Source of the DNA: Nitratiruptor sp. YY08-10
GTDB lineage: Bacteria > Campylobacterota > Campylobacteria > Campylobacterales > Nitratiruptoraceae
Assembly (NCBI RefSeq): GCF_016629565.1
Contig: NZ_AP023057.1
Coordinates: forward strand, 62,001 to 126,000
Direction: 5' to 3'
DNA length: 64,000 nucleotides
Shown: piece by piece, positions 1-6,955 of the stretch
How positions within the stretch are numbered: the first letter of the stretch is position 1
Layout: each line of letters opens with the position of its first letter
Program-made: the position numbers and the translations under genes
Notes under the pieces: model-generated
Told to the model about the DNA's origin: nothing
The model's input: only the letters and a program-made list of their open reading frames with translations
Databases searched by the model: none

Positions 1-859
1 CTGTTGTGTTTTTAACCTCAATCCCTTTGACACTTATCTTTTTGACTAGTTTTTTTTCAAATGCATCAATTGCATCAAGTTTATAGACTTGATTAAGAAC
101 ATTTTTGTGCGTAGCAGAGTAGCGCAAAACAAAAAGCGGATCAAACTCTTTGATTTTTTCTTCAGATATTTTTCCAAACTTTTGCGGCTCATCTATAATG
201 AGTATAGGACGTGTTGATCGAATCACATCGATGGGTCTGTTTGAATTCATCAAATCAAGCTCTTCATAGATTTTTCTTGCTTCTTTAGCTCTTGTAGCAA
301 ATGCTTGATAGTTCATTATCATCACCCAAATATCATTACTTTTGGCAAAACTCTTAATATTGCTAAGATTAGTTGGTCTTTTGGTATCATAGATAAAAAA
401 TCGAAGCTTTTTATTGTAAAGCTCTTTAAAATGATCTTGTGTTATTTCTAAACTTTTATGCACTCCTTCACGAATCGCAACACTTGGCACCATAATGATA
501 AATTTTGAAAATCCATAACGCTTATTGAGTTCAAATATAGTTCTGGTATAGACATAAGTTTTCCCTGTTCCTGTCTCCATTTCAACAGTGAAGTTGAGTC
601 CTTGAAGTCTTTTAGAAGGTTTAATGGCGTTTCTTTTTTGAATGGTTTTAAGATTAGTTAAAATCTCTTCATTACTTATTAAAAGATTTGGATTTGCAAA
701 AGTGTTGTATATAATCTCTTCTTCAATAAGCCCATCTTTTTTTAGTTCTTTATCAAAAATATTTTTTATTAGCTCTTTTTTAGGTTGTCCATCAAATAGA
801 TCACATACGCTATTTACTGCATCGATTTGATATTGTTGCTCTTTGAAGTGGAGTTTCAT
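1..859 (-). CDS. res: Type III restriction endonuclease, Res subunit (N-terminal part)
   Basis: Helicase/nuclease subunit of a type III restriction-modification system, which translocates on DNA and cuts when two unmethylated sites are met. The reading frame opens at an ATG (857-859 on the reverse strand) preceded by GGAACCTT and stays open to the left edge, so only about 286 N-terminal residues are visible. It shows the family's Walker A motif METGTGKT and, further on, the DEAD-like box IDEPQKFG, which is the form typical of type III Res proteins. The C-terminal nuclease domain lies outside the window. It is the last visible gene of a minus-strand series mod - AAA ATPase - rhuM remnant - fic - res; the usual adjacency of mod and res has been interrupted by four genes. 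Confidence 0.93.
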   Translation of the reverse strand, partial: MKLHFKEQQYQIDAVNSVCDLFDGQPKKELIKNIFDKELKKDGLIEEEIIYNTFANPNLLISNEEILTNLKTIQKRNAIKPSKRLQGLNFTVEMETGTGKTYVYTRTIFELNKRYGFSKFIIMVPSVAIREGVHKSLEITQDHFKELYNKKLRFFIYDTKRPTNLSNIKSFAKSNDIWVMIMNYQAFATRAKEARKIYEELDLMNSNRPIDVIRSTRPILIIDEPQKFGKISEEKIKEFDPLFVLRYSATHKNVLNQVYKLDAIDAFEKKLVKKISVKGIEVKNTT

Positions 860-880: not shown

Positions 881-960
881 TTGTCACTTATTTTTATTTT
901 AGTGACAAATTCCATATTTTTTGTCGCTAATAAAATTTTTAGTGACACATTTGTCACTAA
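881..960. repeat. Cluster of five TTAGTGACA-type sites between fic and res
   Basis: Five copies of a nine-base motif TTAGTGACA or its complement lie in 80 bases: TGTCACT at 882-888, AGTGACA at 901-907, TGTCGCT at 922-928, AGTGACA at 941-947 and TGTCACT at 952-958. Orientation alternates, and the first four are 19-21 bases apart, about two helical turns. The last two form the imperfect palindrome TAGTGACACATTTGTCACTA, which overlaps the fic stop codon. The position directly upstream of res suggests an operator array; that role is inferred. The winged-helix tail of the Fic protein next door is one candidate binder. Confidence 0.55.
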
Positions 961-2036
961 GCAATGATTTTTAATAATTCATCGAAATAGAAAGTTTTAT
1001 TTCTCTCTTTTTCATCGCTAGAAATGATTTTTTTATCTATTAAAAAGCTAATGACTCTATATATAGATCTCTTTTCTATACCTGTTTGATTTTCCATTTT
1101 TTTAGATGAAAAAATAGGAGTTGAAAAAAGAAAATCTAATACCTTTATACTATTTTTAGGAGTTGGCATATCAACTATTTCATTTTTTAATTCATTATAG
1201 AGTGTAACAATTTTGTTGATTTTATTTATGTTATTTATAGATTGTTGTGTGATTGCTTTAAGAAAAAACTGTATCCAACTCTCCCAATCTTGCTCTTTTG
1301 ATACATTATTTAGATAGTTATAATAATCTTCTCTATGAGTTTCCAAATATTCACTTAGATAAAACATAGGCATACCAATAATATCTTTGCTATACAAAAA
1401 TATAGGTATTAAAATTCTTCCAGTCCGTCCATTTCCATCCCAAAATGGATGAATAATTTCAAATTGTGCATGTATGATTGAAAGCTGAACTAATGTATCT
1501 TTTTCTTCATAATGCATATATTTTTCTAAGTTTGTCATGTATTCATCTATTAATTGAGGATCAGGAGGAATATATGTAGCATTTTGGATATCAACTCCTT
1601 TTTTCCCTATAAATACTTGTCCATTTCTAAAATTTCCTGGATTTTTATTTGAACCTCTAACACCACTAAGCAAAATTTTATGAATCTCTTTGATAAGTCT
1701 TACTGAAAGTGGCAACTCATTTAATCTTGTTATGGCATATTCTATAGCTTTTCTATAATTTATAACTTCTTGAATATCTGCAAAATTTTTTACTTCTTTT
1801 GTAGGATTTGCCTCATAATTTAATACATCTTCAAAGGTAGCCTGAGTCCCTTCGATTTTAGAAGATAAAACAGCCTCTTTTATAGTCAAAGGCGCTAAAA
1901 GTAATTTGGGATTAGGAATAATTTGTAATAATCCATCATATTTTGCTAAAGCTCTATTTGCTTTTGCAATATCTTCTATTAAAAATTCCCAATTTATATT
2001 TTTTAAAGGAAGTTTTTGTGGAATATATGGTTTCAT
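957..2036 (-). CDS. Fic family protein with N-terminal inhibitory motif and C-terminal winged helix
   Basis: A 359-residue Fic-domain enzyme; the family transfers AMP or another phosphate-containing group to target proteins. The complete active-site loop HPFWDGNGRTGR sits at residues 196-207, with catalytic His196 and the phosphate-binding GNGRTGR. An N-terminal helix carries SSKIEG at 58-63, matching the (S/T)xxxE(G/N) inhibitory motif, with Glu62 as the expected blocking residue, so this is a self-inhibited class II Fic. The last ~70 residues read as a winged helix, suggesting DNA binding and autoregulation. The start overlaps the stop of the upstream remnant (TAATG). It lies inside a type III restriction-modification locus, so a defence or host-arrest role is plausible but unproven. 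Confidence 0.9.
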   Translation of the reverse strand: MKPYIPQKLPLKNINWEFLIEDIAKANRALAKYDGLLQIIPNPKLLLAPLTIKEAVLSSKIEGTQATFEDVLNYEANPTKEVKNFADIQEVINYRKAIEYAITRLNELPLSVRLIKEIHKILLSGVRGSNKNPGNFRNGQVFIGKKGVDIQNATYIPPDPQLIDEYMTNLEKYMHYEEKDTLVQLSIIHAQFEIIHPFWDGNGRTGRILIPIFLYSKDIIGMPMFYLSEYLETHREDYYNYLNNVSKEQDWESWIQFFLKAITQQSINNINKINKIVTLYNELKNEIVDMPTPKNSIKVLDFLFSTPIFSSKKMENQTGIEKRSIYRVISFLIDKKIISSDEKERNKTFYFDELLKIIA

Positions 2037-2326
2037 TATAAATCCTTTAGTCTATTTTTTAAAATATAATAATTCCCTTTTGTTTTCCCAATTTTTTCTA
2101 AAATTCCTTTTTTAACCATATTGCTTAAAATTTCTCTTGCTCTCTCAATTTTTATTATTTTTTTATTATTGCTAACTCTAATTATTAGTTTTTTGTCGGC
2201 GCTATTGCCAAAAGCTACTACAGTTTTTGCTACTGTTTCAGTATTGTGCAAAAATACTGGTAATTTTTTGATAAATTCTACTCTTGCTTGCATAGATTGA
2301 ACGAACTCTTTCAAGAAGTTCATCAA
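2036..2326 (-). pseudogene. Fusion remnant: out-of-frame rhuM end joined to an AlbA_2 / winged-helix fragment
   Basis: An open frame of 96 codons that looks like debris and not a designed protein. Its first ~27 codons are the out-of-frame continuation of rhuM. From about residue 30 it contains TVAKTVVAFGNSADKKLII, resembling the core of AlbA_2 (Schlafen-like, divergent AAA_4) domains, but the usual upstream part is missing. The end, REILSNMVKKGILEKIG followed by YYIL, resembles the C-terminal winged helix of the same protein family. The ATPase-like middle that should separate the two is absent. The simplest reading is that an AlbA_2-type regulator gene was internally deleted and joined to a truncated rhuM. 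It could still be translated, since the frame is open up to the fic start. Confidence 0.6.
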
Positions 2327-2741: not shown

Positions 2742-5099
2742 TTAATCAACAACTTTTAATAAACATTCGAAATACTCTTTATCTTCGTTTTGTATAGTTT
2801 CAATAATTATGTTTATTATTTCAATTATTTCTTCTATATCTAAAGGTTTCCAAGCCCTTTCAATGTATGTTAAATGTGAAAATTCATTTACAACTCTATT
2901 TATCTTTTCTGCTTCTCCATTAGTACCAAAAAAATTAAGTTTTTCTATTGTAAGTCCATCGTTATCGGGAAATTTATAAAACATATAATATTCTAAAAAC
3001 TTTCTTAATGCATTAGGTATATCATAAAATTCATTATAAGTATTATTGATTCTACCTTTTACTGTTTCAATGCTTCTTCTTTTATTTTCATTATATAGTT
3101 TATAAATCTTCTCAAAAGTAAAATGTAATTCAGTAGTGTAGTTTTTTATATATTTTGGTAGTAATTTAATTGTACTGTTTGAAATATTTTGTTTTTTAAT
3201 TCTTTCAATTAAAAAATATTCTATATCATCTTTATTATCACTTGTTTTTGGGATAGTAATGCTTTTCAAATATCTTAAAAAGTCTAAATTATGAGTAGAA
3301 ATATAACATTGTAAGTATTTTTTTTCTTTTGTAATATGTTTTTCAATTAATGCATAAATAGAAAAAATATGATTATTATCTAGGCTAGATACAGGATCAT
3401 CAATATAAATTATTACATTATTTTCATTATCTAATTTATTTTTTGCTTTTGCTAAGAAGTAACAAAATGCAATTAAACTTTGTTCTCCATTACTTAATTT
3501 TTTTGATTTTTTATTTTCTCTTAATATTTCATAAAAAACTTGTTTTTCATTTTTTTCATTAATGCTTAATTTTAAATGAGAAGTGGTGAGATTTAAAAAT
3601 TTATTTATTAATTCAATACTTGCTTTTTCATCATTTAATGAATCTTCTAGTTCATTTATTTTATCTAAAATTCTGTTTTTACATTCTGTTATTTTTGATA
3701 ATCTTAATTGCCAAAATTGTTTTTTATGCTCATATTTTCTAATTTTTTCTTTTGTATCAAAATAATTTATATCAGATAAAAATTTTTTTATTTCGTTTAA
3801 TCTTAATTCTAGTTTTGACTTATGTTGTTCTTCTAATAAATTATTGGTATAGGAATTGTTTTTTTCTATTAAGTTTTCTAATTTTTCAAAAAAATTATCA
3901 AATTTTTTTACCAAAGAGCTATAGTTTTCAATTATTTTATAATCAACACTTAGAGATTTTGTTTTGTTTTTTAACTTTTTGTCTAATAATTTTATTAAGT
4001 TATTTTTAACAATTTCAAATTCATTATTTAATTTACTAAATTGTTTAAAAAATTCTTTCAAATTTTCTTTATATAATTCATAAAATTGTTCTTCTTTTAA
4101 ATTTAAATGAATATTAATGCTTTCAATTTCTTTTTTTAGCTCTTCTATTTGATTTTCAAACTCTTCATGTGCTTTATCAAAATGTCTATCTAATTCGTCA
4201 TATCTTAAATCTTCTATTGTATTACCGCAAAATGCACAAATTTTACTTTTATTTTTATGTAAATTTATTCCTTGTTTAACCCATTGTTCTAATTCATAGT
4301 TATTTAATAATTCTTGAATTATTTTTGATGGTTTAATTTCTTTTGATAGAACATTTTTTACTTTTTCTATTAAAGTTCCAAGTTTTTTATATTCATTCGG
4401 TATATGAAAGTATATCTTGTTTTTTTTGTCCTCTTTGATTATTTTCTCATATTTTTTTTGTATTGACTCGTCTAAAAAAGTAAACTTCGTTCCTTCTCTT
4501 TCAATTATATACTCAATATCATTTTTGATGGAAGTTATATTATAAGTCGCTATCCCATATAGTTGATGTTTTATATATTTATTTGCTTTATCCTGAAGAG
4601 ATTTCGTCAAATTGCTTTTTTCATTTTCATAGAGTTTAAAACTACTGTTATATTCTTTTTCTATTTTACTAATAAGTTTTTCTATTTTTTCAAATACATT
4701 TTTACAATTCTCAATTTCTTTTAATATTTCTTGATTTTCTTTACCAATTTTAACTTTAAAAGATTTTATATTTTTAGTATCATCATAAAAAAAACCTAAA
4801 TTATCTTTTATAAAATCGTCATTATATACCAATATATTTAAATTAGCTTCAAAAATTTCATCTTGATTTTTTACTATATTATTCGTCAAATATATGTTAA
4901 ATTTTGGATTTTTAATAAAAGATGGATATTTTTTTTCTTCAATACTTCTGAAAATTCTTGATAGAGTTGTTTTACCAGAATAATTTCTTCCATATATAAT
5001 ATTTAATTTTTTAAAAGTTGTATTATTTAACTCGGGATTTTGTCTCCATCTAAAATCTTGATAAATACCAAAGCTTTCAATATCAAGTTTTTCAATCAT
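2742..5099 (-). CDS. AAA_13 ATPase with coiled coil, zinc-hook and HEPN-like C-terminus (RloC/PrrC-like)
   Basis: A 785-residue SMC/ABC-type ATPase. Walker A is GRNYSGKTT (37-45), the ABC signature is LSNGEQS (about 535-541), Walker B is IIYIDDPVSSLD (about 562-573) and the H-loop is STHNLD (about 600). Between them lie long lysine/glutamate-rich coiled coils with one CAFCG motif near 287-291, as in zinc-hook proteins. The C-terminal region has R699-x3-E703 and R735-x6-H742 (RVVNEFSH), resembling the Arg-Glu-His set of the PrrC/RloC tRNA anticodon nucleases and the Rx4-6H signature of HEPN ribonucleases. Such proteins cut tRNA when the linked restriction system is disarmed. It lies 12 bases after mod and is clearly more AT-rich than the core genome. 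The nuclease call is inferred from spacing and residues; a purely ATPase AAA_13 protein is the alternative. Confidence 0.8.
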   Translation of the reverse strand: MIEKLDIESFGIYQDFRWRQNPELNNTTFKKLNIIYGRNYSGKTTLSRIFRSIEEKKYPSFIKNPKFNIYLTNNIVKNQDEIFEANLNILVYNDDFIKDNLGFFYDDTKNIKSFKVKIGKENQEILKEIENCKNVFEKIEKLISKIEKEYNSSFKLYENEKSNLTKSLQDKANKYIKHQLYGIATYNITSIKNDIEYIIEREGTKFTFLDESIQKKYEKIIKEDKKNKIYFHIPNEYKKLGTLIEKVKNVLSKEIKPSKIIQELLNNYELEQWVKQGINLHKNKSKICAFCGNTIEDLRYDELDRHFDKAHEEFENQIEELKKEIESINIHLNLKEEQFYELYKENLKEFFKQFSKLNNEFEIVKNNLIKLLDKKLKNKTKSLSVDYKIIENYSSLVKKFDNFFEKLENLIEKNNSYTNNLLEEQHKSKLELRLNEIKKFLSDINYFDTKEKIRKYEHKKQFWQLRLSKITECKNRILDKINELEDSLNDEKASIELINKFLNLTTSHLKLSINEKNEKQVFYEILRENKKSKKLSNGEQSLIAFCYFLAKAKNKLDNENNVIIYIDDPVSSLDNNHIFSIYALIEKHITKEKKYLQCYISTHNLDFLRYLKSITIPKTSDNKDDIEYFLIERIKKQNISNSTIKLLPKYIKNYTTELHFTFEKIYKLYNENKRRSIETVKGRINNTYNEFYDIPNALRKFLEYYMFYKFPDNDGLTIEKLNFFGTNGEAEKINRVVNEFSHLTYIERAWKPLDIEEIIEIINIIIETIQNEDKEYFECLLKVVD

Positions 5100-5111: not shown

Positions 5112-6955
5112 TTACACCACCCATATATCTGTTTCTGGGCTTTGCTCTTTGAAAATTTGCTCAAAATTTATTTTATCACTATCGCTTTTGAAACTGCTAT
5201 CTTTTAGCACGACTTTAAGTGGCTGGTATTTGACTAACTCTTTTGCCAAGTTTTCATCGATATTTTCATCAAAAGAGGATATAAGAGTATTGTTTTGCAC
5301 AAAATAGACTTTTTTGCCCAAAATCTCTTTTGCTTCAATCTCTAAAGTAAGCTCAAATCCAAGATTTAAGATTACTTCAAAAAGTAGATCAAGATCAGTT
5401 CTATCTGGTTTGATGTTATCGATTGTTTCAAAGAGATTTTCTTGAGTAATTTCGCTTATATCTTTGTTTTCTTTGAAGTTTGAGGTATCGACTTTGAAGT
5501 AGCGAAAGCCTGTATCTAGGAATTGGGAATTAGGAATTTGGAATTGGGATTTTATTTTTTGAGCGGCTCGGATAATACGTTCTCTTCCAATTTCTGCGAT
5601 TGTTCTAAATCCGGCTTTATAGGCTTCGCTTTTTTCATCAACCTTTTCTGGGATTTGTATCATAATAAATTGTCTGTTTCCGCCATCTTCTGCGTTTAGC
5701 TCAATTACTGCATGAGCTGTAGTAGCTGAACCGCTGAAGAAGTCGAGGATGATGTCGTTTTTGGAAGTAGAAATATGTAAAATTCTTTTAATGAGTTTAA
5801 CCGGTTTAGGATAGTCGAAAAATGCTTTATTATCAAATAACTTTTTAGTTTCTTGTCGCGCCTCCTGTGTATGTCCTACTTCGGAGTTGTACCAAATTGA
5901 TTTTGGAACAAGACCCTGTTTTATTTCTGATAAAAATCTTTTGATACTTGTACGTTATTACCATTTTCACCGAACCATATTCTATTATCCTTTAATAACT
6001 CTTCAAATTTCTGTTTGCTTACAGACCAACTTCTTCCTGGAGGAGGTAATACTGTTCTACCACTTGGAGTGATAATTTCATATATATCTTTTTCAGTTTT
6101 TCTTGCTACACTCAAGTCACTGCTTTTCCAAGGTCCTCTTGGATCATTATCAGGGTTTTTATATCGTGATTTTTGTTCTTCTGTCATTGGCAATAAATTT
6201 CTATTAAATTTTTCTTTGTTTTTTGCATAGCAAATAATTTGTTCATGATTTAAGGAAAAATATTTTGCATCATTTTGTGGAGAATATTTTTTTTCCCAAA
6301 TGATTTCTTGAATATAGTTTTTCTCCCCAAACACCTCATCACACAAGTGCCTTAGATTATGCACCTCATGATCATCAATTGAGATAAAAATTACTCCATC
6401 AACTCTAAGTAGATCTTTAGCAATCAAAAGCCTTTCATACATCATACTGAGCCAATCACTATGAAATCGCCCGTTTGAGTCAGTATTTTTAAATAGCTTT
6501 ACTCCATCTTCATCTACTGCTTCAATCTCTTCTTCATATTCATCTTTGCTTTGTTTAAAATTATCTTTGTAGATAAAATCTTTTCCGGTGTTATAGGGAG
6601 GATCGATATAGATCATTTTAACTTTACCCAGGTAGCTTTCTTGTATAATTTTTAAAGCCTCAAAATTATCCCCTTCGATATAGAGATTTTTTGTTTTCTC
6701 AAATTCAACCGATTTTTCTATAACCGGGCGTAAAGTTTTATTTATAGGAGTGTTGACTTTTAAAATCGATTCTTTTTTACCCACCCAGTTTAAGCCATAT
6801 CGCTCTTTGCATCCATCAATTACATGATCACTTAACATCTGCTTTAAAAGTTCAAAATCGACTTTGCCTTCTTTAACCACATTTGGAAAAATTTGCGCTA
6901 ATTTTTGTATATTTTTTTGTGCTAAACTTGGAGTAGATAAATGAAGTTTTTTCAT
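5112..6955 (-). pseudogene. mod: Type III DNA methyltransferase, Mod subunit (single frameshift)
   Basis: Methylation/specificity subunit of the type III system. The 5' part (to about 5921) carries the catalytic DPPYNTGKDF motif and the family N-terminus. The 3' part carries the AdoMet-binding DFFSGSATTAHAV and a typical C-terminal domain. The two parts are in different frames: in the region around 5947-5953 the reverse strand reads GTACAAG, and adding one C (GTACCAAG) joins them as NNVPSIKRFLSE, the form expected in this family, giving a protein of about 614 residues. No long simple repeat is present, so classic phase variation is not suggested; either a real inactivating mutation or a sequencing error is possible. 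The start codon is followed by MKKLHLSTPSLAQ. Confidence 0.85.

Follow-up and report, generated by a model that had tools for sequence, protein, structure and literature searches.

The RloC proteins described from Geobacillus kaustophilus, Acinetobacter baylyi and Campylobacter jejuni are ABC ATPases split by a coiled coil that carries a CxxC (PMC2610378, PMC3874168). The family was defined by the C-terminal motif Arg-X3-Glu-X36-52-His, often with Ser before the His, by a CX2C insert and by a length of 658-897 aa, and the tRNase activity of the G. kaustophilus protein needed every residue of the triad (PMC2610378). In the characterized RloCs the nuclease is turned on by linear DNA and ATP, and zinc-hook mutants are deregulated (PMC2610378, PMC3874168). 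The related PrrC, a type Ic-linked tRNA-Lys anticodon nuclease, is silenced by its restriction-modification (R-M) partner, whereas RloC, an anticodon nuclease that excises the wobble nucleotide, carries its own DNA-break switch. In 2008, linkage to a type I or type III locus was reported for 8 of 73 RloCs (PMC2610378), and in 2013 Anantharaman et al. tabulated RloC together with R-M and RhuM or Fic/Doc genes (PMC3710099). The RloCs of the three species named first lie in a type I locus or in none, whereas the copy described here lies in a type III locus.

The window, a stretch of 64,000 nt from Nitratiruptor sp. YY08-10, contains a gene that, judged by its sequence, is a typical RloC, a member of a known family and ordinary within it. 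Its ATPase is split by a coiled-coil insert that bears the CxxC, its 785 aa fall inside the published length range, its triad spacing (R-x3-E-x38-SH) is within the published x36-52 range, and it shares the sporadic, mobile distribution of the family. Pfam AAA_13 matched nearly the full length (E=1.5e-120), as PADLOC PDC-S06 matched the protein (4.5e-207) and the PADLOC PrrC model the C half of the ATPase (3.3e-14), and the match is therefore not a chance one. The open reading frame, the ATPase motifs, the single CxxC and residues R699, E703, R735 and H742 were all located exactly where the preliminary description had placed them. Its identification of an RloC/PrrC-type ATPase-tRNase was borne out by the PADLOC models, the conserved motifs, the alignment with PrrC and the published RloC motif definition.

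Table 1. Features of the rloC gene and its neighbours, in window coordinates
Feature	Position	Strand	Evidence
rloC, 785 aa, ATG start	2742..5099	(-)	AAA_13 / PDC-S06
Walker A GRNYSGKT, residues 37-44	4968..4991	(-)	G42 and K43 in 85/86 (one gap)
Zinc-hook-type CxxC (CAFC, C288-C291), in predicted long-helix insert	4227..4238	(-)	both Cys in 86/86
ABC signature LSNGE, residues 535-539	3483..3497	(-)	motif and alignment
Walker B VIIYIDDP, residues 562-569	3393..3416	(-)	motif and alignment
R699-x3-E703, part of RloC/PrrC triad	2991..3005	(-)	same as PrrC R-x3-E
R735-x2-N738-x2-S741-H742, remaining triad region	2874..2897	(-)	same as PrrC (N)R..N..SH
Predicted tRNase domain, C-terminal, helical, residues 657-785	2742..3131	(-)	model and PrrC alignment
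Type III mod, N-terminal frame, 344 aa	5921..6955	(-)	PADLOC MTase_III 7.3e-140
Type III mod, C-terminal frame, shifted relative to upstream frame	5112..5954	(-)	frameshift near 5930-5954
rhuM, 135 aa	2323..2730	(-)	Pfam RhuM 7e-29, PDC-S05 5.8e-58
96-aa remnant ORF	2036..2326	(-)	joins both ends of the congener's 454-aa SLFN/AlbA_2 protein
fic, 359 aa, HPFWDGNGR motif	957..2036	(-)	Pfam Fic 3.2e-21, Fic_N 4.1e-29; SoFic 1.9e-122
Type III res, gene start	2..859	(-)	990 aa, complete beyond window edge

Relatives were drawn from the same phylum and from a genome-wide scan, and 86 full-length sequences were aligned. As the patterns used in the scan were confined to ATPase motifs, the C-terminal residues had not been selected for. 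C288, C291, S536, G538, D568, N696, R699, K700 and N738 were invariant, E703 was present in 84 sequences (D in two), R735 in 85 (K in one) and H742 in 85, the exception being on a contig that ended short; the distance from the Glu to the His was 37-52 residues across the alignment. Conservation of R699, E703, R735 and H742 among homologues, which the preliminary description had proposed as its own test, was thus found at 84-86 of 86.

The protein shares aligned ATPase and triad residues with PrrC, as well as linkage to R-M: a profile alignment with 13 PrrC homologues from the same phylum brought R699, E703, S741 and H742 into register with the PrrC triad (hhalign probability 98.2). PrrC was nevertheless rejected as an identity for the gene. 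PrrC is about 340-440 aa and has no coiled-coil insert, and the 13 homologues, at 340-439 aa, all lacked the CxxC, whereas the protein here is 785 aa long with a CxxC insert; linkage to a type Ic system is invariable in PrrC, whereas this locus is type III. A sequence search of the PDB with the RloC protein alone gave no match, a search with the profile gave only weak matches to AriA and Rad50, and a scan of IMG/VR found no relatives.

The structural model of the full-length protein was of moderate quality (pLDDT 74.6, pTM 0.50). In this model long helices flank the CxxC on both sides, and the best PDB fold matches to the whole were the heads of Rad50, SMC and Lamassu proteins. Residues 605-785 (181 residues) were modelled with confidence as a helical bundle (mean pLDDT 84.7, pTM 0.77), in which H742 ends one helix and R699 and E703 lie on a second. 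Foldseek returned no significant match between this C-terminal model and the PDB, the HEPN toxins 5yep_B and 7bxo_F appearing only among the non-significant ones, and a Pfam scan of 61 C-terminal domains for an HEPN model returned AAA_13 only. R735-x6-H742, with the invariant N738, conforms to the HEPN motif R-x4-6-H with a polar residue, and an HEPN assignment of RloC has been published (PMC3710099). Membership of the HEPN group is therefore based on the motif, the PrrC alignment and the published assignment, and not on a fold match.

The operon is transcribed in the order mod, rloC, rhuM, 96-aa ORF, fic and res, with intergenic gaps of 12, 11, -4, -1 and 97 nt. PADLOC models for both Mod and Res matched, so the reported position of rloC between the mod and res genes of a type III locus is correct; the frameshift in mod, and the presence of rhuM, the remnant ORF and fic between rloC and res, had been overlooked. 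The RhuM protein is shorter than the forms of roughly 345 aa, and short forms also exist. An assembly error was considered as the source of the mod frameshift and is disfavoured: 73 proteins from three relatives were mapped onto the region, and since 72 mapped unbroken and none was split, general assembly noise is an unlikely cause.

The companions of rloC match those in the neighbourhoods that Anantharaman et al. tabulated (2013; PMC3710099); this locus differs in lying between mod and res of a type III system and in having both RhuM and Fic. Among 85 full-length relatives, type I genes lay within 3.5 kb in at least 20 and type III genes in at least two, these linked counts being lower bounds because some contigs are short, and 63 had neither. 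The gene order was mod-rloC-fic in one relative's locus (L022) and hsdM-fic-hsdS-rloC-rhuM-fic-hsdR in another (L071). The placement in a type III locus had been called less usual; it is uncommon, but it is not novel, having been reported in 2008 and 2013. The gene adds one member to a known family, in a neighbourhood of a kind already described, and what is new is local.

The GC content of rloC is 20.0%, that of mod and res 31-33%, and that of window positions 7001-64000 40.1%. In a relative (G001) the flanks at -2206 and 7131 are only 234 bp apart, and the whole cassette is therefore absent there. A congener (G010) carries a mod/res pair elsewhere in its genome, with a Res that is 91% identical. 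The congener mod-res interval (L129:5175-10769) holds a CBASS-like operon comprised of patatin, DncV-like nucleotidyltransferase (CD-NTase), ThiF/E2 (Cap2) and JAB (Cap3) genes, and an intact gene for a 454-aa SLFN/AlbA_2 protein adjoins res (L129:5175-6539). As the 96-aa ORF is made up of the two ends of that SLFN gene joined together, the two cassettes have a common ancestry and carry different cargo.

In the phylum, 32 loci with mod upstream of res were examined: 15 had extra sequence between the two genes and 17 had none, 12 of the 17 coming from one genus. The genes in the 15 filled intervals are mostly known or candidate defence genes, including Abi_2/AbiD, SLFN/AlbA, KAP NTPase, NA37, a pentapeptide protein, HepT and its nucleotidyltransferase, RhuM, YhcG-type nucleases, an ATPase/TOPRIM-like pair and a DUF3800 pair. 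As the 32 loci were ranked by similarity to this Res, without control operons, the pattern is suggestive only. It raises the tentative possibility that, in mobile type III cassettes of the phylum, the mod-res interval is a favoured site for cargo, and that entire defence systems (RloC with RhuM and Fic, CBASS, AbiD/Abi_2, HepT-MntA, SLFN/AlbA, KAP NTPase and OLD/TOPRIM-like pairs) may be swapped there while mod and res are retained, so that cargo and restriction would travel and be expressed as one operon. Nothing specific on cargo between mod and res was found in the open-access literature. This pattern is the part worth following: two congeners share an almost identical Res but carry different cargo, and defence genes are frequent between mod and res, which together suggest a place in which to seek new ones.

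The Rad50-like ABC head, the helical CxxC insert, the RloC/PrrC triad, the close packing in one orientation with mod, rhuM, fic and res, and the absence of the cassette from a relative were all observed, and they make it probable that the gene is a predicted RloC anticodon nuclease carried as cargo by a mobile type III R-M cassette. By analogy with the characterized RloCs, linear DNA ends would be engaged by the ATPase and zinc-hook region, and hydrolysis of ATP would switch on the C-terminal nuclease, which would cut an anticodon loop and so stop protein synthesis in a cell that is damaged or infected. It would most likely act as a parallel defence with its own switch, and not as a toxin restrained by Mod/Res.

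The preliminary description had favoured restraint, with RloC silenced by and coupled to mod/res, but this transfers a PrrC property to RloC and is not supported. As in EcoPrrI/PrrC, Mod/Res would bind and silence the nuclease, and inhibition of the restriction enzyme by a phage would free it. That precedent, the place of rloC in the operon, 12 nt downstream of mod, and the 20 of 85 relatives that have type I genes no more than 3.5 kb away, several of these relatives lying directly between hsdR and hsdS, are consistent with such a guard; however, in 63 of the 85 neither type I nor type III genes lie within 3.5 kb (some contigs ending early), and the RloC of A. baylyi, which has a DNA-break switch of its own and still responds to breaks when R-M is mutated, is neither silenced nor blocked by loss of R-M (PMC3874168). 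In the locus studied here mod is frameshifted and rloC is open, and a guard is unlikely. The frameshifted mod, the albA gene cut to a remnant and the short rhuM could instead point to a slot that just gathers genes, with rloC a functionless passenger decaying along with the cassette, but rloC is full length and retains every motif residue at 20% GC, and fic and res are likewise open, which makes decay very improbable. An intact RloC beside a frameshifted mod is also a natural case in which any dependence of R-M-linked RloCs on the R-M partner could show. The frameshift in mod may be a reversible one, and some cells of the population could then have a working Mod.

Other R-M and defence genes are also frameshifted. 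A second family member in this genome, a PrrC homologue (G000:C1:202684-203765; L004:4718-5760; E 2.9e-56 and 1.1e-43 in two frames), has an Abi_2 gene as its neighbour in a type I locus and is frameshifted at a run of seven T, and the hsdM of that locus (L004:2056-3656) likewise falls into two frames, the break lying at a stretch of seven A. Together with mod, three R-M or defence genes are thus frameshifted in one genome, 72 of 73 checked genes near the window being unbroken, and A/T-tract switching is possible as the cause. The congener mod (L129:10774-12700) is likewise in two frames, split within the target-recognition region. In eight genomes of one genus (L153, L156, L158, L162, L163, L165, L167 and L168) the type III mod is in two slightly overlapping frames, as expected for phase-variable mods.
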